The position numbers were made by a program, and so were the translations under genes. This document shows, one piece after another, positions 7,030 through 58,295 of a stretch of 58,681 bases of DNA (positions are counted from its first letter, which is position 1; every line of letters starts with the position of its first letter). The notes beneath the pieces are model-generated. The model searched no databases. It had not been told where the DNA came from and was given only the letters and a program-made list of their open reading frames with translations. The DNA is from Colwellia sp. (GTDB lineage: Bacteria > Pseudomonadota > Gammaproteobacteria > Enterobacterales > Alteromonadaceae), in assembly GCA_026196955.1 (NCBI GenBank), contig JAPHTO010000118.1, positions 1 through 58,681 on the forward strand, given 5' to 3'.

Positions 7030-7836
7030 ATGCGCATTGAAGAGCCTTGTTTACCTGAAAAGCCTATACTCACCATTTTATATCAAGACGATTATTTAGT
7101 TGCCGTAGATAAGCCTGCGGGGTTATTTGTTCATCGTAGTTTCATGGATAAAGATGAAATATATTTTGCTCTGCAGCTAGTACGGGATCAAATTGGTCAA
7201 TATGTTTACCCTGTGCATAGGTTGGATAGGCCAACATCAGGGGTATTATTATTTGCGTTAACCAAAGAGGTTGCGCAAAAACTGAATGAGGCCTTTGCAA
7301 AAAAGTCAGATAGCTTTGATGAGTTAGGTGAAAGTGAAGCGACTCAGTTAACGAAAACCTATTACGCTTTAGTGCGTGGGCATTTACCGATAACGGCTCA
7401 GCGTGAGCTGATAGATTATCCGCTCAAAGAAAAGCTAGATAAACTTGGTGACAAAAATGTTAGTCGAGATAAAGCGCCACAATCAGCCCAGACTTATTAT
7501 CGCGTGATGAAACAGGCAAGTTTGCCGATTGCTGTTGGTAAATTTACTAGTGTTCGCTATTCTTTGGTTAAACTAAATCCTATTACTGGCCGACGTCATC
7601 AAATTCGTCGTCATTTGGCTCATCTCAGGCACCCTATAATCGGTGATATCAATTATGGGGATAACAAGCAAAACCCGTTTTTTGGTCAACACTTTGGCTT
7701 TAAACGGTTAATGCTCATTGCTCAGTCATTAAGTTTTATTCATCCGGTCACAGAGCAATTGATTACTGTCACTGCTGATTTTGATCAGCAGTGGCAGCAA
7801 GTCTTTAAAAGGCTAGGGTGGCAGGTAGAGGCTTAA
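7030..7836 (+). CDS. truC: tRNA pseudouridine(65) synthase TruC
   Basis: 268-residue RluA-family pseudouridine synthase that isomerises U65 in certain tRNAs. The catalytic-Asp motif HRLDRPTSGVLLFAL lies near residues 74-88, and the C-terminal signature GRRHQIRRHLAHLRHPIIGD is intact. No S4 RNA-binding domain precedes the catalytic domain, as expected for TruC. The stop codon overlaps that of the convergent RND permease gene. Confidence 0.92.
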   Translation: MRIEEPCLPEKPILTILYQDDYLVAVDKPAGLFVHRSFMDKDEIYFALQLVRDQIGQYVYPVHRLDRPTSGVLLFALTKEVAQKLNEAFAKKSDSFDELGESEATQLTKTYYALVRGHLPITAQRELIDYPLKEKLDKLGDKNVSRDKAPQSAQTYYRVMKQASLPIAVGKFTSVRYSLVKLNPITGRRHQIRRHLAHLRHPIIGDINYGDNKQNPFFGQHFGFKRLMLIAQSLSFIHPVTEQLITVTADFDQQWQQVFKRLGWQVEA

Positions 7837-10800
7837 CTCCTTGTTAAACGTTTTGCAAAAACATTTGCATGGAAGAAACCTATGCTGGTATTTCTGGCCA
7901 TTTTGGTGAAAATTAAATAACACCAAGGCACTAAAAATAAACTGGTGATGGTGGAAAAAGTTAAACCACCAATTATAGCTATGGCTAAAGGGGAGTATGA
8001 TGGGCCATCACCACCTATTTGTGTGGATCCTAAAGCGAGTGGGATCATACCTAGCACAGTTGTAGCCACTGTCATTAATACCGGTCGTAAACGCGTAATG
8101 CAAATATCACAGATCACTTGCTCTAATTCGGTAATCTTGGGCGTCATTTGGTTTATTTGATCAATGAGCACTATGCCGTTATTCACCACAATGCCCATCA
8201 GTATCAAGATACCAATCATCCCCATCACTGACATGCTAGTGCCTGTGATAAAAAAGAACCAAAACACACCAACGATAGAATAGATAATAGAGCTGATGAT
8301 CGCTGCTGGTAGTAATAAAGATTCAAATAAGGCAGCCATGACGATGTAAATCATGGCTAATGCCAAGATCATATTGGTGATCATAATTTGTTGATCAGCT
8401 TGTTGGCGGTTAAAACCTTGACCTAGTTTCCAGCTATAGCCTTGAGGTAGCTCAATAGCATTCATCGCTGTGGTGATGCGTTTTTCTGCTTGCTCCATCG
8501 TAATATCATCTAAGTTTGCGCCTATGGTCAGTGCTGTTTGGCGATCTTCACGATAAATTGCTGTTAACCTAGGTTGCACTTTAAAGTGCGCCACATTTTC
8601 TAAAGTGATGTTTTGCCCGTCTATCTGAGCGATAGGCAGTTTTTTCAATTGGCTTAATGAGTACTTAAGGCGTTGATCATAGAGTAAGCGTATTTTTACT
8701 TCGCCATTGGGATCATGCCTGAAACTTCTTAATTCTAAACCACGTAACGCTGTCCCGACTATTTGAGCAACTTCATTAGAGTTTAGCCCCAACTGGCTGG
8801 CCTTAATCCTATCAATTATCAATACCATTTCTTTTTGGTGTTGAGATACATCACTGCGCACATCTGCTAGGCCGTCAATATGATCAAGCATAGGAACTAC
8901 TTGGTTGGCGAGTGTTATTAATAAGTCGGTTGAGGGGCCAACTAGACTCATACTAACACCACCGCTTTTAGCGCTTTGCCAGCCAAAGTCAGGCTTTGCC
9001 TCCGCAAAATTTGGCATGTCTTTTCTAATGCGCGCCTTGAGCTCTGTCATAGAAATATCGCGATCTTCTTTCAGTAATAAGGTTGAAGAGGCTCTTTCAC
9101 CGCTGTAATAGCTGTAAACAGAGTCAATATAAAACTCTTCTTGGTGTTCATATAGGTACTCTTCAAAACGATCAACCATAGCTTCAACATGCTCAAGTGG
9201 AAATTGTCCTTCAACATGGTAGCGCATGTATAAACGAGTACCGTCTTGATTATCCATATTATCAGAGGTGATTGCGCCCATGGGAAGAGCGGTACTGACT
9301 AAAATAAGCAGGGCAATTAAAGCGGTAATTTTAGGGTGCGCTAACACCCAAGTTAAACTACTTTTATAGCGAGCTTGCAAGCGGCTTGGCTTATTCGCTA
9401 CTGATCCAGCTTTTGTATTGTTGAGCTTATCAAGTGATATTTTGCTTAATAATAAAGGCAGTAAGGTTTTAGCGATTAATAATGAAGCCGCTAAGGATAT
9501 ACAGATTGCGATAGCAACATGCTCTAAAAACACCGTTAGTTGTACTTTTTCGCCAATAATATTAGGTAAAAATACAATCATGGTGGTTACTGTACCTGTC
9601 ATCACTGCCAGAGAGACTTTATCAACACCTTGTAAAATATTACTGGTTTTATTGGCTTGTGGCTTTTTGCTGTGCTGTGCTGAAATAGACTCAGTGATCA
9701 CTACTGAATTATCAACCAACATACCAACAGCAAGTAGTAAGCCCATCATAGATAATACATTAAGGGAATAACCAAGAAGATACATAATGGCTAACGTGAT
9801 GCAAATTGAAAAAGGCACTGAAGCGACAACTAACAATGTTGCAGTGGTATTGCGCATAAATAAATACAGTACGGCAAAAGATAACAGCGCACCAATAGCG
9901 CCTGCTGTTAATAAGTCACCTAGTGAATCGGTAACCCCTTTGGCTTGGTCTTCCATCATGAAAATATTCACGCCATCAAACTGTCGACTACCACGAATAC
10001 TTTCAACGGATTCAACAACACGCCCCGCCACTTCAACTAAATTAGCACTTGATTCTTTAAATACATTAACACCAATAGCATAGTTTCTATCTAGGTGGCG
10101 ACCATCAACTTGCTCAGGTTTTTCAAATGCTATGCTGGCAATATCACCAAGATAAACATTATCGTTAACTTTTAATGCCCGTATATCACTTAACTTGGTA
10201 AACTCACCTTTGGGACTAATACGAATACTGGCTTGCTCAGATTTTAACGAGCCGGCATTAATGGTGAAGTTCTCTTTTTGTAGCATTAAGGTGAGTTGCC
10301 TGATGTCAACATTATGGCTGGCCATTCTGTCACTCAATAAGCGGATTGAAATCTGGCGAGGATCAACGCCATATAATTCAACCTTAGATACTCCAGCTAA
10401 GCGCTCAAGTGGTTTTTTAAGGTAATTATTTAATAACTGATAGCTATTTTTTAACTCTCGCTCGCTCGAAATACGTAGTGTTAAAATGGGCATATCCGCG
10501 GTGGAAAATTGATAAACAAATATTCGCTGCAAATCTTCCGGTAGCAGGTGTCGAATGGCATCAATTTTTTCTCTTGCTTCAATCGCTTTGCCCGTTAAGC
10601 TTCGCTCCCACTCCACTTCAATACCTATTTGCGCACCATGCTCTGTTGAGTTTGAATTAAGACGAATTATGCCTCCCATGGTGGACAACGCTTCTTCTAA
10701 GGGTTTAGTGACTAACCGCTCGACTTCTGCTGGTGTTGAGGCTTGATAAGGCGCATTTATCATCATTTCAGGAATATCAATTCCAGGCCACTTCTCTAAA

Positions 10801-10931
10801 GGCAATAACTGTGTCGCCGCAAACCCCATTAACAACATGGTTAAACACAGCATAAAAGTGGTAACTGGTTTCTTTAATGCTAACGACGTTAAATTGATGG
10901 TGGATGATTTCTCACTGGCTTGCTTAGACAT
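7833..10931 (-). CDS. RND efflux permease, second permease of the operon
   Basis: 1032-residue HAE-type RND proton antiporter with 12 predicted membrane helices and two large periplasmic loops. The TM4 motif is VDNSVVITESI and TM10 has VVNNGIVLIDQIN. The second Asp and the Lys of the AcrB relay are therefore replaced by Asn, while one Asp remains in each helix; this is common in SwrC-like RND proteins. Its start overlaps the end of the preceding permease by 8 bp, so the two are translationally coupled. It probably forms a mixed or alternative trimer with the partner permease, as in MdtBC or MuxBC. Substrates are unknown, and no TolC-like gene is nearby. Confidence 0.88.
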   Translation of the reverse strand: MSKQASEKSSTINLTSLALKKPVTTFMLCLTMLLMGFAATQLLPLEKWPGIDIPEMMINAPYQASTPAEVERLVTKPLEEALSTMGGIIRLNSNSTEHGAQIGIEVEWERSLTGKAIEAREKIDAIRHLLPEDLQRIFVYQFSTADMPILTLRISSERELKNSYQLLNNYLKKPLERLAGVSKVELYGVDPRQISIRLLSDRMASHNVDIRQLTLMLQKENFTINAGSLKSEQASIRISPKGEFTKLSDIRALKVNDNVYLGDIASIAFEKPEQVDGRHLDRNYAIGVNVFKESSANLVEVAGRVVESVESIRGSRQFDGVNIFMMEDQAKGVTDSLGDLLTAGAIGALLSFAVLYLFMRNTTATLLVVASVPFSICITLAIMYLLGYSLNVLSMMGLLLAVGMLVDNSVVITESISAQHSKKPQANKTSNILQGVDKVSLAVMTGTVTTMIVFLPNIIGEKVQLTVFLEHVAIAICISLAASLLIAKTLLPLLLSKISLDKLNNTKAGSVANKPSRLQARYKSSLTWVLAHPKITALIALLILVSTALPMGAITSDNMDNQDGTRLYMRYHVEGQFPLEHVEAMVDRFEEYLYEHQEEFYIDSVYSYYSGERASSTLLLKEDRDISMTELKARIRKDMPNFAEAKPDFGWQSAKSGGVSMSLVGPSTDLLITLANQVVPMLDHIDGLADVRSDVSQHQKEMVLIIDRIKASQLGLNSNEVAQIVGTALRGLELRSFRHDPNGEVKIRLLYDQRLKYSLSQLKKLPIAQIDGQNITLENVAHFKVQPRLTAIYREDRQTALTIGANLDDITMEQAEKRITTAMNAIELPQGYSWKLGQGFNRQQADQQIMITNMILALAMIYIVMAALFESLLLPAAIISSIIYSIVGVFWFFFITGTSMSVMGMIGILILMGIVVNNGIVLIDQINQMTPKITELEQVICDICITRLRPVLMTVATTVLGMIPLALGSTQIGGDGPSYSPLAIAIIGGLTFSTITSLFLVPWCYLIFTKMARNTSIGFFHANVFAKRLTRS

Positions 10932-13900
10932 TAGTTACTCCCGCAAACTTTTTATTTTCATCAATTGCTATTTCATCAGCCTTTTGGACAAACTTTTTAT
11001 GATCAAATAAGTGATATAAAACGGGGAGCACTACTAAGGTTAATAGGGTGGATGATAATAAGCCGCTGATAACGGTAATGGCCATCGGCGCTCTTAATTC
11101 AGCACCTTCACCTAAGCCTATTGCCATTGGTACTAAACCTAAAGTGGTTGTTAACGTTGTCATGATTATTGGGCGGAGTCGAGAGGTTGCTGCTGTTTTA
11201 ATTGCCTCAACTTTATCGCTACCTTGAGCGCGTAATTGATTGATTCTATCAACGAGTACAATGGCATTATTAACGACAATGCCTGCAAGCATAATCAAAC
11301 CGATAAAGACGATGACACTGATATTAGTGCCAGTGAGAAATAAACCATAAATAGAGCCAACCCCAGCAAGTGGCACGCTAAAGAGTATTAATAGTGGGTG
11401 TAATAATGACTCAAATTGCGAGGCCATCACTAAATAAACAAGAAATACCGCTAGGGTAAGTGCCATTAACATTGAGTTGAATGAATTCTGCATTTCTTCA
11501 CTTTGACCACCAAATGTTGCAACCACTGAAAAAGGTAAATCAAGTGCTTCGATGTGCTGGCTTGCACTGGCAAGCGCTGAGTTTTGATCGCCCATAGCAA
11601 TGTTAGCACTGATCACCGCTACGCGTTGTTGGTTAATACGGTTGATTTGTGCAGGGCCTACTGTTTCAACAATATCGCTAATACTCGCGAGGGTAATAGG
11701 GAAGTCACTGCTAGGATTTATGACTAACTCTTGTAAGTCATTAATTGAATCTCGCTCGGCAAGATTACTGCGCACTAAAATATCAATTTTTCTATCTAGT
11801 AAAGTGTATTTACTCGCTACATTCCCACCAATTTTAACAGCCAGTAAGCGCGCAATATCGGGTGTGTTTAAGCCAAGTTGTGCTATTTTTTGTTGGTTAA
11901 AGTGAATTGCTAACTCAGGTTGCCCTTTGCGTTGGCTATTGGCAACATCGACAAATTGTTCATCTTGATCCATAGCTTTAGTGAGTTGCTTTGAATATTT
12001 TTTCAATTCATCTAAATCATAACCGGCTAGTTCAATACTCATAGGCTTGCTAAAGGTAAATAGCTCAGGGCGATTTAGCGAGGTAGTGGCGCCAACAATA
12101 CTGCGAGCATATTGCCTAATTTTCGCCATAACGGCTTGTTCATCTGCGCTGTCGTGAAGGATCACTTGTAAGCGTGCTTGATGCTCACCACCTTTATCTG
12201 CGCTACTGGTCATTAAACTACCACGACCTGTTAATGAATAAGTGCTTTTAACTCTGTCATCATTTTGTAGCTGTTTTGCGACTAAGTTGATGGCTTGATC
12301 TGTTTTGGCTAAAGGAGTGCCTGGCGCTAATTCTATATCAAAATAAAATTCACCTTGTGAAAGAGGCGGCAGTAACTCGACACCAATTTTAGGCAATATT
12401 AGGCTTGCTGAGCCTGCGAATAATAAGCTTACAAACAAGGTTTTAATGCTGTGGTTTAAGGCAATATTTAACAGTTTTTGATAAACGGCCGCAAGTAAGT
12501 CAAAAACCTTATTAAAGCCTTTACTTATAGGCTGCATGATAAATGACAAGCCTTTTCTCATACCGTAAAAGCCGATTAAAATTACACGCATTGCTAACAT
12601 AGGTATATAAACAAATAATACTTTAAATGGCAGCGTTATTAGCCAAGTGATTTTTTGCATTACAAGCATTTGCTTAAAAGCAATTTTTTCTATCTTTTTT
12701 GCATTATCCTCTTGTGCCGGAGGAGAGACTTGTCGAGACGCGAGCATGGGAATAAGGGTTAGTGCTACCGCTAAAGAGGCGATTAACGCGAAAGCAACGG
12801 TCATGGCTTGATCTGCAAATAACTGTCCAGCAACGCCTTCAATAAAAATAAGTGGTACGAACACAGCTAGCGTGGTTAGTGTTGAAGCAACAATGGCGCC
12901 GCTTACTTCTTTAGTGCCTTTTCTCGCCGCTTCGACAACATTCAAGCCTTGCTCTTTATAACGAGAAATATTTTCAAGTACGACAATAGCGTTATCAACT
13001 AACAAACCTGTGGCTAAAGCGATACCGCCTAAAGACATAATGTTGAGGCTGATATCATTGCCATACATCATGTTAAAGGTGGCAATTACTGATACTGGGA
13101 TAGATAAGGAAATAATCAGGGTGGGCACTATGGCGCGTAGAAATAAATACAACACCAGCATAGCAAGTAAACCACCAATAATAGCGGCGGATTTCACTTC
13201 ACTGATGGCATTACTAATGAAAGTAGATTGATCATACACCACGGTTAGTTGGTATTGATCGCCTGATTTTTTGCGGATACTGTCCAGTTTATCGTTGATA
13301 AGTTTTGCCACTTGTACTGTATTTGCATCACCTTCTTTATAAATGGCTAATTCAACCGCTTCCCCTGCGTTAATACGAGTAACATCAGTTCGCTCTTTAT
13401 AGCCATCAACGATACGAGCGATGTCATTTAAGTAGATGATTTTATCATTTTCACGGTAAACGACTAACTGGCCTATTTGCTTAATATCGGTAAATTGATT
13501 AAGTGTGCGTACTAGGTATTGGGTATTACCATCAATGAGTTTTCCTGCCGAAATATTGATGTTTTCAGCGTTAATACGATTAATAATTTGCTGGCTGGTC
13601 AGGTTTAATTGCGCCAATTTATGTTGATCAATTATGACTTGATATTCTTGCTCAAGGCCTCCGCCTAACTTAACTGATGCGACACCTAGTAATGATTCAA
13701 GCTGGCGTTTAATGTCATATTCACCGTAAGTTCTTAACTTGGTTAAGCCGGCGACTGAAGTGTCTTTACTTTGTAAACCTAGTCGAATAATAGGATCTAG
13801 TGATGGGTTAAATTTTAGAATAAGTGGCTTTTCAACATCTAAGGGCAGGGTGATCAAGTCAAGCTTCTCACGCACTTCTAAACTGGTAATATCCATTGCG

Positions 13901-14196
13901 GTTTGCCACTCAAACTCTAATAGCACATCTGACTGGCCTGCTTTGGAAATGGAACTGATTTTTCTAAGACCTTTAACCACACCAACAGCTTCTTCTATCG
14001 GTTTGGTGATCAGCTGCTCAATTTCACCTGGCGCAGCACCAGTATAATTGGTGCGCACTGTCAGGGTTGGATAAGTTAATTCAGGCAGTAAATTTACCGC
14101 CAAACGTGAAAGGCCAACCAAGCCAAATAAAATGACGGCAAAAGTAAACATCCAAACCGTTACGGGGCGTTTTATTGCAGTATCGACTAAACTCAT
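10924..14196 (-). CDS. RND efflux permease, first permease of the operon (long form)
   Basis: 1090-residue RND permease. The TM4 motif is VDNAIVVLENI (D401), and TM10 has VVNNAIVLVDRIN. The segment between TM6 and TM7 (about residues 490-575) is some 50 residues longer than in AcrB. It includes a hydrophobic run at about 517-546, so it may add an amphipathic or membrane hairpin. A good AGGA lies upstream of the ATG. The adaptor gene is upstream on the same strand, but a structured repeat of 264 bp sits between them. Confidence 0.88.
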   Translation of the reverse strand: MSLVDTAIKRPVTVWMFTFAVILFGLVGLSRLAVNLLPELTYPTLTVRTNYTGAAPGEIEQLITKPIEEAVGVVKGLRKISSISKAGQSDVLLEFEWQTAMDITSLEVREKLDLITLPLDVEKPLILKFNPSLDPIIRLGLQSKDTSVAGLTKLRTYGEYDIKRQLESLLGVASVKLGGGLEQEYQVIIDQHKLAQLNLTSQQIINRINAENINISAGKLIDGNTQYLVRTLNQFTDIKQIGQLVVYRENDKIIYLNDIARIVDGYKERTDVTRINAGEAVELAIYKEGDANTVQVAKLINDKLDSIRKKSGDQYQLTVVYDQSTFISNAISEVKSAAIIGGLLAMLVLYLFLRAIVPTLIISLSIPVSVIATFNMMYGNDISLNIMSLGGIALATGLLVDNAIVVLENISRYKEQGLNVVEAARKGTKEVSGAIVASTLTTLAVFVPLIFIEGVAGQLFADQAMTVAFALIASLAVALTLIPMLASRQVSPPAQEDNAKKIEKIAFKQMLVMQKITWLITLPFKVLFVYIPMLAMRVILIGFYGMRKGLSFIMQPISKGFNKVFDLLAAVYQKLLNIALNHSIKTLFVSLLFAGSASLILPKIGVELLPPLSQGEFYFDIELAPGTPLAKTDQAINLVAKQLQNDDRVKSTYSLTGRGSLMTSSADKGGEHQARLQVILHDSADEQAVMAKIRQYARSIVGATTSLNRPELFTFSKPMSIELAGYDLDELKKYSKQLTKAMDQDEQFVDVANSQRKGQPELAIHFNQQKIAQLGLNTPDIARLLAVKIGGNVASKYTLLDRKIDILVRSNLAERDSINDLQELVINPSSDFPITLASISDIVETVGPAQINRINQQRVAVISANIAMGDQNSALASASQHIEALDLPFSVVATFGGQSEEMQNSFNSMLMALTLAVFLVYLVMASQFESLLHPLLILFSVPLAGVGSIYGLFLTGTNISVIVFIGLIMLAGIVVNNAIVLVDRINQLRAQGSDKVEAIKTAATSRLRPIIMTTLTTTLGLVPMAIGLGEGAELRAPMAITVISGLLSSTLLTLVVLPVLYHLFDHKKFVQKADEIAIDENKKFAGVTNV

Positions 14197-14233
14197 GAGA
14201 ATTCCTTTAGCTACTTATAGGTAATTATTATTA

Positions 14234-14497
14234 GAGGCTGTTGAACTTTGCTGATTATTTTTGCAGCAGTTTATTAGCCTTTTATACAAGGCAGAGCTTA
14301 TGTTTCGTAGTCACTCTACGCTAATAAGTGATAACGCAGTAGAAATGGCTAATAAACGCTGTCCTTCGGATCCGTTTAAATGCTTCTTGCTCTTTGTTAC
14401 TAGGAACTTACATAGAACGACTATGTTACATTCCTAGCGCCGCGATCAAAAAGCATTTAATTCGAACAAAATTTAAACATGAAAGTTCAGCAGTCCC
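14234..14497. repeat. Structured MITE-like element, copy 1
   Basis: 264 bp flanked by TA on both sides (14232-14233 and 14498-14499). The terminal inverted repeats pair 14236-14249 with 14482-14495, with two G-T pairs. Internal stems: 14264-14279 with 14347-14361 (one bulged A); a hairpin at 14297-14328; 14376-14389 with 14447-14460 (one mismatch); and a hairpin at 14400-14437. CTCTTTGTT and GCCGCGAT flank the last hairpin. A second, diverged copy at 57441-57753 keeps the same plan with different stem sequences. There is no ORF. It lies between the adaptor and permease genes of one operon, and its right end forms the adaptor's stop codon. Confidence 0.85.
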
Positions 14498-15615
14498 TAG
14501 TGCGCTTTGACAATGGCTGTTTCATTATCTGATGCATCGTTATTTTCAATAGCATCTGAGTTGTTGAGGACTTCTACTAAGGCATCGGCTTTAAGGTTAT
14601 GCTGGCCATTAACAACCACGAGATCTCCTTCAGCAATGTCACCAGAAATCTCAGTAATTTGCTCTTCAACAAAACCTTTAGTTACGGTAATTTCTACCGC
14701 TTTATTATCTCTTACTAAGTAGATTTTACTGGTGTTGTCTAAAGTAATAATAGCGTCACTTGCAATGGTAAAGGCATCATCATGGGTAGCAAAAGTTAGC
14801 GCTATTTGCGCAAACATACCCGGTTTTAATTGCTGATTTGAGTTATCTATAGACAGGATCACTTTAAAAGTACCACTTCGTTGATCAATGACAGGTGAAA
14901 TTGAACGAATATTGGCCTGAAAGACTTTATTTTGGCGCGCACTAAAGCTCAGCAATGCTTGTTGATTTAATTCAACATTACTTAATTGGTGCTCTGGTAA
15001 ATAAACCACGGCTTGCAAGCTTGATGGATCTACGATGTGAAATAATTTTTGATAACCTTGGGTGAAATGACCTGGCTTAACATAGCGATGAGAAATATAA
15101 CCTGAAATAGGGGCTATAATTTGGCTATCTTGCAAATCAAGCTCTGCTAACTTTCTCGCGGCAACGGCAGCTTGATGTTGATATTTGAGCTTGTCAGATG
15201 CTTGTGCACTCACGAGCTTTTTCTTAGCCATTAATGATAAACGTTGCAACTCTTGATTAATGCCTTCTAATTCAGCGTCAGCTTTATCAAGCGCGAGTTG
15301 GTAACGGCGAGGGTCAATTTTTGCTAATACTTGTCCTTTTTCGACATAGTCACCTTCTTCAATATCAAGTTGTTCAATAATGCCTGTTACTCGGGTGATA
15401 ATGTCTGCTTCAGTGCGAGATTCAAGTGTTGCGGTAGTGTGAAAGTTGGCAGAAATGCTCCCGCGCTCAATACTGGCAACCGTAACTGGAATGGCAAATT
15501 CTTTTTCTTCTTCTTTTTCTACCTTGGCGGTTGTTTCGCTACAGCCACTTAGTAATAGAGTGTTTATTGCTAGCGCTGCGATAATAAGTGCTTTTTGAGG
15601 ATTAATAGTTAGCAT
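14497..15615 (-). CDS. RND efflux periplasmic adaptor (membrane fusion lipoprotein)
   Basis: 372 residues with lipobox LLSGC at about residues 21-25, then the usual barrel-sandwich/lipoyl, hairpin and beta-barrel domains. The lipoyl halves are visible as TRVTGIIEQLDIEEGDYVEKGQ and IIAPISGYISHRYVKPGH. It should link the two permeases downstream to an outer-membrane TolC-type channel encoded elsewhere. The stop codon is TAG, made from a flanking TA and the first base of the repeat element, so the last residues may differ from those of relatives without the insertion. Confidence 0.88.
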   Translation of the reverse strand: MLTINPQKALIIAALAINTLLLSGCSETTAKVEKEEEKEFAIPVTVASIERGSISANFHTTATLESRTEADIITRVTGIIEQLDIEEGDYVEKGQVLAKIDPRRYQLALDKADAELEGINQELQRLSLMAKKKLVSAQASDKLKYQHQAAVAARKLAELDLQDSQIIAPISGYISHRYVKPGHFTQGYQKLFHIVDPSSLQAVVYLPEHQLSNVELNQQALLSFSARQNKVFQANIRSISPVIDQRSGTFKVILSIDNSNQQLKPGMFAQIALTFATHDDAFTIASDAIITLDNTSKIYLVRDNKAVEITVTKGFVEEQITEISGDIAEGDLVVVNGQHNLKADALVEVLNNSDAIENNDASDNETAIVKAH

Positions 15616-57412: not shown

Positions 57413-57440
57413 GTTTTTCCTTATAAACGTTCAACAACTA

Positions 57441-57753
57441 GGGGCTGTTGATCTTTCGAGATTGTTTTTGCAGCATTTTGTTGGGTATTTTATACAAGGC
57501 AGAGCCTTTGTAATCTGGTTGTTCAGGACATTATGCTCCTGCATTGTCTAACAAGCTACATCCATGTACCGTCACATAAAAAGGTGATAACGCCGTAAAA
57601 ATGACCAACAAACGCTGCCCGAAGGGTTCGACTAAAAACGTTTTACTCTTTGTTGAGTAGTATTTGCTTAGAGTGACTAGGCTACACACTACTCGCCGCG
57701 ATTAAAACGTTTTTATCTCGAACAAAATTTAACCGCGAAAGTTCAACAGCCCC
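57441..57753. repeat. Structured MITE-like element, copy 2
   Basis: 313 bp flanked by TA (57439-57440 and 57754-57755). Terminal inverted repeats of 18 bp (57441-57458 with 57736-57753, one mismatch). Internal stems: 57470-57484 with 57605-57618; 57626-57645 with 57703-57723 (13 bp plus GTTCGA/TCGAAC); and a hairpin at 57655-57694 flanked by CTCTTTGTT and GCCGCGAT, as in copy 1. A longer variable arm (about 57505-57585) holds two small hairpins. No ORF. The right end forms the stop codon of yaeQ, and the element separates yaeQ from the M28 gene. Confidence 0.85.
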
Positions 57754-58295
57754 TAACCGACAAGTTGTAATTTTTTGGTTTCAATTAACAATGATTGATC
57801 ACCACAGCTTAGCCATAATTGCCCGTCTTGTATACTGCACTGAAATTCCATTGTTCTGGTTAATAACTTGGCTAAAGCGTCTGTAGTACTCGGCTCAAAT
57901 TGCTCAACGCTTAGTTTACTGTATTTGCTTAAGGCCGATTGTGATTGAGACCACCAAGTCTCTACACTTGAGCCATAGCAATAGAGTTTGACTTGCTCTG
58001 CCTTATTACACGCTTTTTTGATGCGTTTCTCATCTATTTGCCCTAGCTCTATCCATAACGCAATTTCATCACTGTAGTTGATTTGCCAAAGGGCTGCTTC
58101 ATCTTCATCGCTAACACCTTTGCCAAATTGTAAATCTGGATGGGCATTCAGCACATAACAAATTAAACGCACCATCAGGCGCTGTGGTGTTTCTGAAGGG
58201 TGTTGTGCTAGGGTTAGTTGCAATGAGTCGTAATAGTTACGATCCATATCGGCTAACTCAATATTCGCTTTATATATTGTTGCTTTAAGTGCCAT
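57753..58295 (-). CDS. yaeQ: YaeQ family protein
   Basis: 180 residues (E. coli YaeQ 181). ALKATIYKANIELADMDRN, LTLAQHPSETPQRLMVRL and IELGQIDEKRIKKAC match the family, which has a PD-(D/E)xK-like fold and was reported to compensate for loss of RfaH; its role is unclear. The stop TAG is composed of TA plus the first base of repeat copy 2, so the final residues (LQLVG) could reflect the insertion. Confidence 0.92.
   Translation of the reverse strand: MALKATIYKANIELADMDRNYYDSLQLTLAQHPSETPQRLMVRLICYVLNAHPDLQFGKGVSDEDEAALWQINYSDEIALWIELGQIDEKRIKKACNKAEQVKLYCYGSSVETWWSQSQSALSKYSKLSVEQFEPSTTDALAKLLTRTMEFQCSIQDGQLWLSCGDQSLLIETKKLQLVG

Follow-up and report, generated by a model that had tools for sequence, protein, structure and literature searches.

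Non-autonomous elements with ISSod6-type ends carry two inverted copies of a hairpin selected probably as RNA

Introduction

Two repeat copies on a Colwellia contig share their ends, their TA flanks and several internal landmarks, while the paired arms between these landmarks differ in sequence and remain complementary. What kind of element keeps a fold in this way, and is it kept as DNA or as RNA? Both copies lie in the window, by which we mean the whole 58,681-nt stretch analysed here (contig JAPHTO010000118.1 of assembly GCA_026196955.1). Bacterial MITEs are usually viewed as decayed insertion sequence (IS) elements with species-limited interiors. In the repeats described below it is the interior, not the ends, that is conserved, as a covarying hairpin pair found across unlike terminal repeats.

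Results

Two elements with TA target sites

Copy 1, of the short class (264 bp), occupies 14234..14497, and copy 2, of the long class (313 bp), occupies 57441..57753. A sequence-only reading of the window had given both ranges exactly, with the shared ends and TA flanks, and the stems and landmarks that it quoted (CTCTTTGTT and GCCGCGAT) are present as written in the window copies. Terminal inverted repeats of the form GGGNCTGTTGANCTTT bound both elements, at 14234..14249 (plus strand, one mismatch to the end pattern) and 14482..14497 (minus strand, two mismatches) in copy 1, and at 57441..57456 (plus strand, one mismatch) and 57738..57753 (minus strand, no mismatch) in copy 2. With up to three mismatches allowed, the end pattern GGGGCTGTTGAACTTT has five occurrences in the window, where 0.55 would be expected; four of the five mark the termini of the two copies. 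TA target duplications flank copy 1 at 14232..14233 and 14498..14499, and copy 2, which is placed by its ends, its TA sites and repeat matches, at 57439..57440 and 57754..57755. For copy 1 an empty site is also seen: its joined flanks match four relatives that lack the element and have a single TA (G022 at 80% identity). Neither copy contains an ORF of at least 90 aa in the window's ORF list.

Both copies abut the end of a minus-strand ORF (14497-15615 and 57753-58295), and in each case the duplicated TA supplies the first two letters of the TAG stop, while the terminal repeat adds the third with its first base (14497 or 57753). At the copy 1 site G022 reads TAA where the window reads TAG; insertion into a TAA or TAG stop codon preserves a stop, because the duplicated TA and the first end base rebuild it. 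Copy 1 sits in a row of consecutive minus-strand ORFs (7833-15615) of 1032, 1090 and 372 aa, efflux-pump-operon-like by size and placement, between the 1090-aa and 372-aa members.

Ends and target site of an ISSod6-like insertion sequence

Among 197 extracted elements, TA flanks both sides in 160, one side in 35 and neither in two, with the target consensus YTAR; the duplication does not extend beyond TA, since only 15 of the 197 agree at the third base. Perfect ends of the element type, again with TA, bound an 879-bp IS on a viral-classed contig. Its 252-aa transposase has the domains DUF4096 and DDE_Tnp_1, scores 278.6 bits against NF033580 (IS5 family; cut-off 110) and is 100% identical to that of ISSod6 from Shewanella oneidensis. 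ISSod6-related elements with these two domains belong to the IS427 group. The contig itself, IMG/VR 2791354778_000006 (L139), thus bears an IS whose transposase is identical to that of ISSod6.

An ISSod6-like transposase was found at E<=1e-20 in 15 of 99 genomes, and none was found at this threshold in the host genome. Ten stretches around single ends in the host (G000) were also taken in search of a parent IS; the ORFs read in three of them were of housekeeping type, and no transposase between paired ends was seen there. Matching end pairs 700-1300 bp apart occur at 22 of 30 fetched IS loci, 20 of the 22 being flanked by TA on both sides. The left and right ends of these IS loci change in step with each other. 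Matching changes in the outer stem of the repeat therefore require no fold, since the end pairs of the IS elements show the same through shared recognition by the transposase. Transposition of the IS5 DDE type does not require an inner fold.

Terminal inverted repeats, a target duplication, a length below 500 bp without an ORF of at least 90 aa, and ends in common with an autonomous element (the ISSod6-like IS of relatives and of the viral contig) describe a type II MITE; an internal transposase gene, as in an autonomous IS5 element, is lacking, no ORF reaching 90 aa. Both copies are non-autonomous elements (MITEs) with the ends and the TA target of an ISSod6-like IS of the IS5 family. These ends make an ISSod6-like DDE transposase, acting in trans, the most likely agent of movement for the window copies, the IS being present in relatives and not in the host. 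The repeat has terminal repeats, TA duplication and a spread among marine Gammaproteobacteria in common with ISSod6 and IS5-family elements, and differs from them in having no transposase, whereas ISSod6-like ISs are ~850-885 bp long and encode one. IS630/Tc1 elements, which also target TA, were considered as parents and rejected: DDE_3 was found in two of eight genomes, and the four IS630 copies of G091 do not have these ends.

Copy number and distribution

The host genome contains 36 matches to copy 2, many of them clipped by contig ends. Matches were found in 53 of 99 genomes in a search of relatives that included the host, among them 36 of 38 other genomes of the same genus, which refutes the possibility, raised by the sequence-only reading, that only two copies exist. 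With a 264-bp copy as query, 97 of 394 genomes and 23 of 114 genera matched across the order. A pattern scan of named genomes gave at least 118 stretches; among the matches listed are Vibrio, Grimontia, Enterovibrio, Shewanella, Colwellia, Thalassotalea, Litorilituus, Pseudoalteromonas, Oceanisphaera, Psychromonas, Agarivorans and Algicola. Sixteen plasmid records, from Pseudoalteromonas, Vibrio and Catenovulum, match the element, and the phage records searched gave no match.

One genome from another family of the order (G091) has 53 forward and 59 reverse matches to the ends, none with more than one mismatch and many with identical letters, which looks like recent amplification; no ISSod6-like transposase was found in it at E<=1e-20. 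Two shorter stretches elsewhere, L129:193-295 (103 bp) and L130:193-254 (62 bp), have the same ends and are apparently internally deleted elements.

A covarying fold

Alignments were made for the short class (51 elements, thinned to 30) and the long class (29, thinned to 23), leaving out five loci with doubtful ends (L027, L036, L117, L061 and L052). Both classes have one layout, in which the ends form an outer stem P1, followed by arm P2, a small stem P3 and arm P4; the fold spans the element from one end to the other, its terminal repeats pairing as the outer stem. The long class (304-327 bp) has an extra hairpin of ~49 nt inside the first module.

For covariation, 148 of the 197 elements were kept (250-280 bp, at most four mismatches per end) and reduced to 40 by removing sequences 90% alike. 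These 40 sequences are 63-90% identical, and 32 of 96 pairs show at least two Watson-Crick types. In an R-scape-style custom script, with a tree-based null that re-places 991 substitutions on the tree, four pairs reached E<0.05 when all column pairs were considered, and all four fall within the structure; when restricted to the structure, nine of 96 pairs were significant, six of the nine in P4. Length outliers were removed from alignments A1 (5 of 40) and A2 (4 of 40). A second alignment, of 35 sequences, has two-sided changes in 42 of 77 pairs, amounting to 190 two-sided cells, a total that none of 500 shuffles reached (mean 48), against 24-38 in slid controls. The module is therefore selected as a folded nucleic acid, as this covariation shows. 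The sequence-only reading had held that the fold itself is selected, subject to significant covariation in many copies; such covariation is present, and the claim stands for the covarying stems, with the outer stem set aside because its matching is explained by shared transposase recognition.

Two inverted copies of one hairpin module

The interior consists of inverted copies of one ~96-nt hairpin, the left arm read on the plus strand and the right arm on the minus strand, 10 nt apart. In copy 1 these are module 1 (arm P2) at 14265..14360 in plus sense, a 10-nt spacer at 14361..14370 with the small stem P3, as placed by the fold of aligned elements, and module 2 (arm P4) at 14371..14466 in minus sense, which contains the landmarks mentioned above. 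A covariance model, R1, was built from 36 P4 arms read on the minus strand and includes no P2 arm. It nonetheless matches P2 of copy 1 on the plus strand, and in this inverted sense only (41.9 bits, E 7.6e-11). Of 34 further loci, 30 have a P2 match to R1 in the inverted orientation, and at E<=1 none has one in the same orientation. Many P4 arms match R1 on their own reverse strand too (23-44 bits), as hairpins do, and P2 does not. In one genome (G110) both arms match R1 in opposite directions, 10 nt apart. Compared as sequence profiles without structure, the two arms showed no significant similarity (z 2.1, one shuffle scoring higher); it was the covariance model that decided the question.

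A second model, R2, covers a 60-nt core with 15 pairs, 12 of them with two-sided changes, and was built from 43 cores drawn from both arms and from distant matches (alignment A3, from which five of 48 cores were dropped), with the window copies outside the training set. At E<=1 it has exactly four matches in the window, the two arms of each copy. In copy 1 the cores lie at 14283-14342 on the plus strand (57.8 bits) and at 14389-14448 on the minus strand (51.7 bits, held out), where R1 gives 89.7 bits for an arm that was in its own training. In copy 2 the module 1 core, including the ~49-nt extra hairpin of the long class, lies at 57491..57598 on the plus strand (35.8 bits, E 3.3e-7); module 2 lies at 57627..57722 on the minus strand (R1, 113.6 bits), with its core at 57645-57704 (minus, 68.8 bits). 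The fold as first drawn from the two copies thus holds as that of a structured family, and the R1 and R2 matches replace its interior by two inverted copies of one module.

Which strand folds

Where one strand has a G-U pair, the other has an A-C mismatch, and selection on an RNA therefore gives an excess of G-U on the strand that folds. Ratios of G-U to A-C changes were taken over 120 sequences for each arm separately, with stratification by side and pair class. Pooled over the whole element there is no asymmetry, and a single plus-strand RNA fold of the whole element was rejected: the pooled count is neutral, and the split by arm revealed opposite signs. The left arm P2 has a ratio of 2.21 (1.18-4.79) and the right arm P4, read on the plus strand, 0.36 (0.19-0.65). 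The outer stem P1 shows no strand-specific wobble bias (1.18, 0.64-2.03). Random complementary column pairs gave 1.06 (0.52-1.87) and 0.81 (0.50-1.49), and RNase P RNA in the same pipeline (28 of 30 loci, two with incomplete flanks left out) gave 4.91 (2.39-15.14), compared with which the ratios of the element are weaker.

The P4 ratio was 0.25 and 0.42 in two subsets and 0.49 in the long class, with all intervals below 1. P2 was close to 2 in both subsets (lower bounds 0.72 and 1.00), and its counterpart in the long class (313-bp) showed no wobble bias (0.93, 0.46-1.68). The subsets, labelled 'genus' and 'other', do not overlap and were divided by locus number, which follows genus only roughly (L121 and L060 against L091). 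Fold energies of the right arm differ little between the strands. P4 clearly acts as a minus-strand fold, and P2 behaves as a plus-strand fold, in the short class only. The opposite signs share one cause, because the sense strand of each arm is the one running inwards from its own end of the element.

In single-stranded DNA, too, G-T is more readily tolerated than A-C. For both arms, with the exception of the left arm of the long class, the wobble test speaks for RNA against DNA that is double-stranded or cruciform, and the results support a module selected most likely as RNA, each copy being sense inward from its own end of the element. Single-stranded DNA for mobility, or RNA, had been left as alternatives by the sequence-only reading; the arms favour the latter, and the former is not needed by an IS5-type DDE transposase acting on the ends.

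The core occurs within several kinds of terminal repeat

Across the class R2 matched 74 of 274 genomes and 65 of 222 genera, 72 of the 74 genomes lying outside the window's order. On 30 unrelated loci (99.6 kb) it matched at one locus only, as an inverted pair. A second, inverted copy was present at 24 of 30 distant loci, where many first arms had been in the R2 training, and, at E<=0.01, at 19 of 29 class-wide loci, themselves chosen by R2; in both sets it lies mostly 103-112 nt from the first. Clear terminal repeats surround the pair at 23 of 30 distant and 23 of 27 class-wide loci. In the class-wide search for ends the first eight loci had no shuffle control, and L448 and L453, at contig ends, were left out.

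Grouped by eye, these terminal repeats fall into about seven or eight kinds, some of them possibly distantly related. Among the 46, 26 have GGGNCTGTT, ten TATACCC, four the CTCTGATT type and two GAGCCTRTC, and single kinds begin TACCAATCC, TACTAACCC, GGTCGTGTC and AGGGGGCGTTC. Lengths of 263-272 bp are found in 19 of the first 23 elements, and the other 23 range over 247-285 bp. The core pair thus behaves as a cassette joined to several transposon ends, since it is found with other terminal repeats, and the occurrence of its relatives in elements whose ends are quite unlike suggests selection on the hairpin itself. On 23 IS loci R2 gave a clear match only at L149 (31.6 bits, beside the IS gene) and a weak one at L176 (E 0.34); the interior of the element is not a deleted IS, because the core model is absent from 21 of the 23.

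The 73 distinct class-wide cores show two-sided changes in all 15 pairs, with 336 two-sided cells against 113 in shuffles. Cores have diverged to ~63% mean column identity with their pairs retained. Read in sense, the class-wide cores give 23 G-U against 4 A-C events and a ratio of 6.46, figures that lean towards the model, because the alignment is model-fitted and the matches are model-chosen. Tandem G-A/A-G pairs, which are usual in RNA, are frequent in the middle stem, and loop positions that do not pair are conserved from family to family as well as between both arms.

At six loci (L411, L405, L422, L404, L402 and L400) ERIC-like ends, TATACCC...TTCAAG, surround the inverted module pair. 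One TATACCC-ended element was searched against E. coli genomes and plasmids and gave no match. Partial matches lie on plasmid records of Azotobacter, Halomonas, Methylophaga and Pseudomonas. One locus (L388, in G178) has a lone module that scores 79.8 bits with R1, with no detectable terminal repeats, and is possibly a decayed or stand-alone copy.

Genomic setting

None of 132 elements lies inside a gene. The 3' end of a facing gene lies at a median distance of 32-46 bp, and in 19 of 126 cases the facing gene ends at the junction. Gene orientation around the elements is nothing special (++ 44, -+ 32, -- 30, +- 26); this absence of preference fits a symmetric element without proving symmetry. 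Promoters and terminators are at or below chance in either copy.

Discussion

Overall, we consider it about 70% probable that these repeats are MITEs with ISSod6-type ends that contain an inverted pair of a selected hairpin, probably an RNA, with a putative role in transcripts. The module itself is probably a structured RNA under selection, carried by several transposon chassis, with a cellular function that we infer. In the proposed mechanism an ISSod6-like DDE transposase would mobilise the element in trans via its ends. A transcript entering from either flanking gene would then, regardless of how the element is inserted, first meet a hairpin in the correct orientation, because the modules face inwards from both ends. 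The element might therefore provide host transcripts with a structured segment, 3' or intergenic, that works in either orientation and may set where these transcripts are trimmed, stopped or protected, and this effect could render insertions tolerable or useful.

The most serious alternative is selection on DNA, with the module folding as a single-stranded hairpin or a cruciform during replication or transposition, for example for recognition by a protein. The end-to-end fold with the terminal repeats as its outer stem would suit it, as would the lack of strand bias in that stem, which double-stranded or cruciform DNA would give, and the failure to find a promoter in either copy. Cruciform DNA, however, predicts no strand-specific wobble tolerance, and the two arms show it with opposite signs; the class-wide ratio of 6.46 resembles that of RNase P, tandem G-A/A-G pairs are frequent, and IS5-type DDE transposition is established to work without an inner fold. 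We regard selection on DNA as unlikely. The paired changes could also be mutational, if quasi-palindrome correction by template switching copied one arm onto the other. Hairpins of the ~96-nt module size are known substrates of such correction, and two-sided changes are common in the element alignments. Template switching would nevertheless yield perfect complements, with neither an excess of G-U over A-C nor opposite signs in the two arms, whereas internal loops persist as mismatches and the unpaired letters of the loops are kept across families and in both arms; we judge it very improbable.

An ordinary MITE with a frozen, functionless palindromic interior, alike everywhere through recent horizontal spread, would account for the plasmid copies in Pseudoalteromonas, Vibrio and Catenovulum and for near-identical copies within one genome (the 53 and 59 end matches of G091). 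It fits poorly with cores that keep their pairs at ~63% mean column identity, with 336 two-sided cells against 113 in shuffles, and with several unlike terminal repeats at a nearly constant element length, and is in our view improbable. The remaining alternative, that the element is a form of the enterobacterial palindrome ERIC, is suggested by the TA-type end, the intergenic position and the folding that they share, by the ERIC-like TATACCC ends of some distant module relatives, and by the letters AAGGC and AACGC, common to ERIC and the module. Real ERIC loci from E. coli fail both models, with best scores of 5.9 bits for R1 (two loci) and 5.0 bits for R2 (three loci), no better than chance. 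These scores rule out ERIC as the same module, and we give a form of ERIC hardly any credence. The preferred reading thus remains a hairpin pair selected most likely as RNA on MITEs with ISSod6-type ends.

Several described families resemble the element in part. ERIC/IRU/RU-1 are short, intergenic and structured with TA ends, and a non-coding role at the RNA level has been proposed for them (PMC2229807). ERIC is given as 127 bp in PMC2759123, compared with 264-313 bp here, and the ends of the window copies differ from it. YPAL/RU-2 of Yersinia (~168 bp, no TA at the ends, 3-26 bp duplications; PMC2229807) is likewise palindromic and intergenic; on this description the element is set apart by its TA-flanked ends, and membership was rejected for window copies that have TA ends and not 3-26 bp duplications. 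Correia/NEMIS, RUP, Chunjie and QMITE are type II MITEs that share only their ends with an IS and form stable folds in transcripts (PMC10969869, in part); the portion available describes each as limited to a single genus and contains no covarying inverted module pair across end classes. REP/BIME/REPIN, with units of 20-40 bp (PMC3733652), are also paired inverted palindromes between genes, and differ from the element with its terminal inverted repeats, TA and 96-nt modules.

Rfam gave no match in the window at curated score; three loci searched at E<=1 gave one chance match below the cut-off, and 20 module loci gave two tRNAs only. The end letters returned only unrelated primer-type matches in the literature. 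We found no description of the interior in the literature searched, which covered few subscription journals and leaves a description elsewhere possible. The sequence-only reading, which knew of no described family, agrees with Rfam and this literature as far as the interior is concerned.

A broader and more tentative proposal, to which we give slightly less than even odds, is that of a mobile RNA cassette spanning the class: an inverted pair of hairpin RNAs that would have been rejoined repeatedly to different transposon ends across Gammaproteobacteria, with length and layout kept, and that would act on neighbouring transcripts independently of orientation. If this is true, the cassette would be a bacterial counterpart of SINEs on DNA transposons, in which the RNA is conserved and the transposon replaceable. 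The inverted pair explains why the repeat can sit in either orientation. It also becomes testable whether such repeats spread by transposase alone or through an RNA that is tolerated or useful in neighbouring transcripts. The two covariance models provide a ready means of finding thousands of unannotated copies.

A minor observation concerns the host draft assembly, in which many contigs (C81, C154, C152, C4, C127, C164, C26 and C130 among them) start or stop within the repeat; the repeat probably fragments this assembly, which is in 167 pieces.
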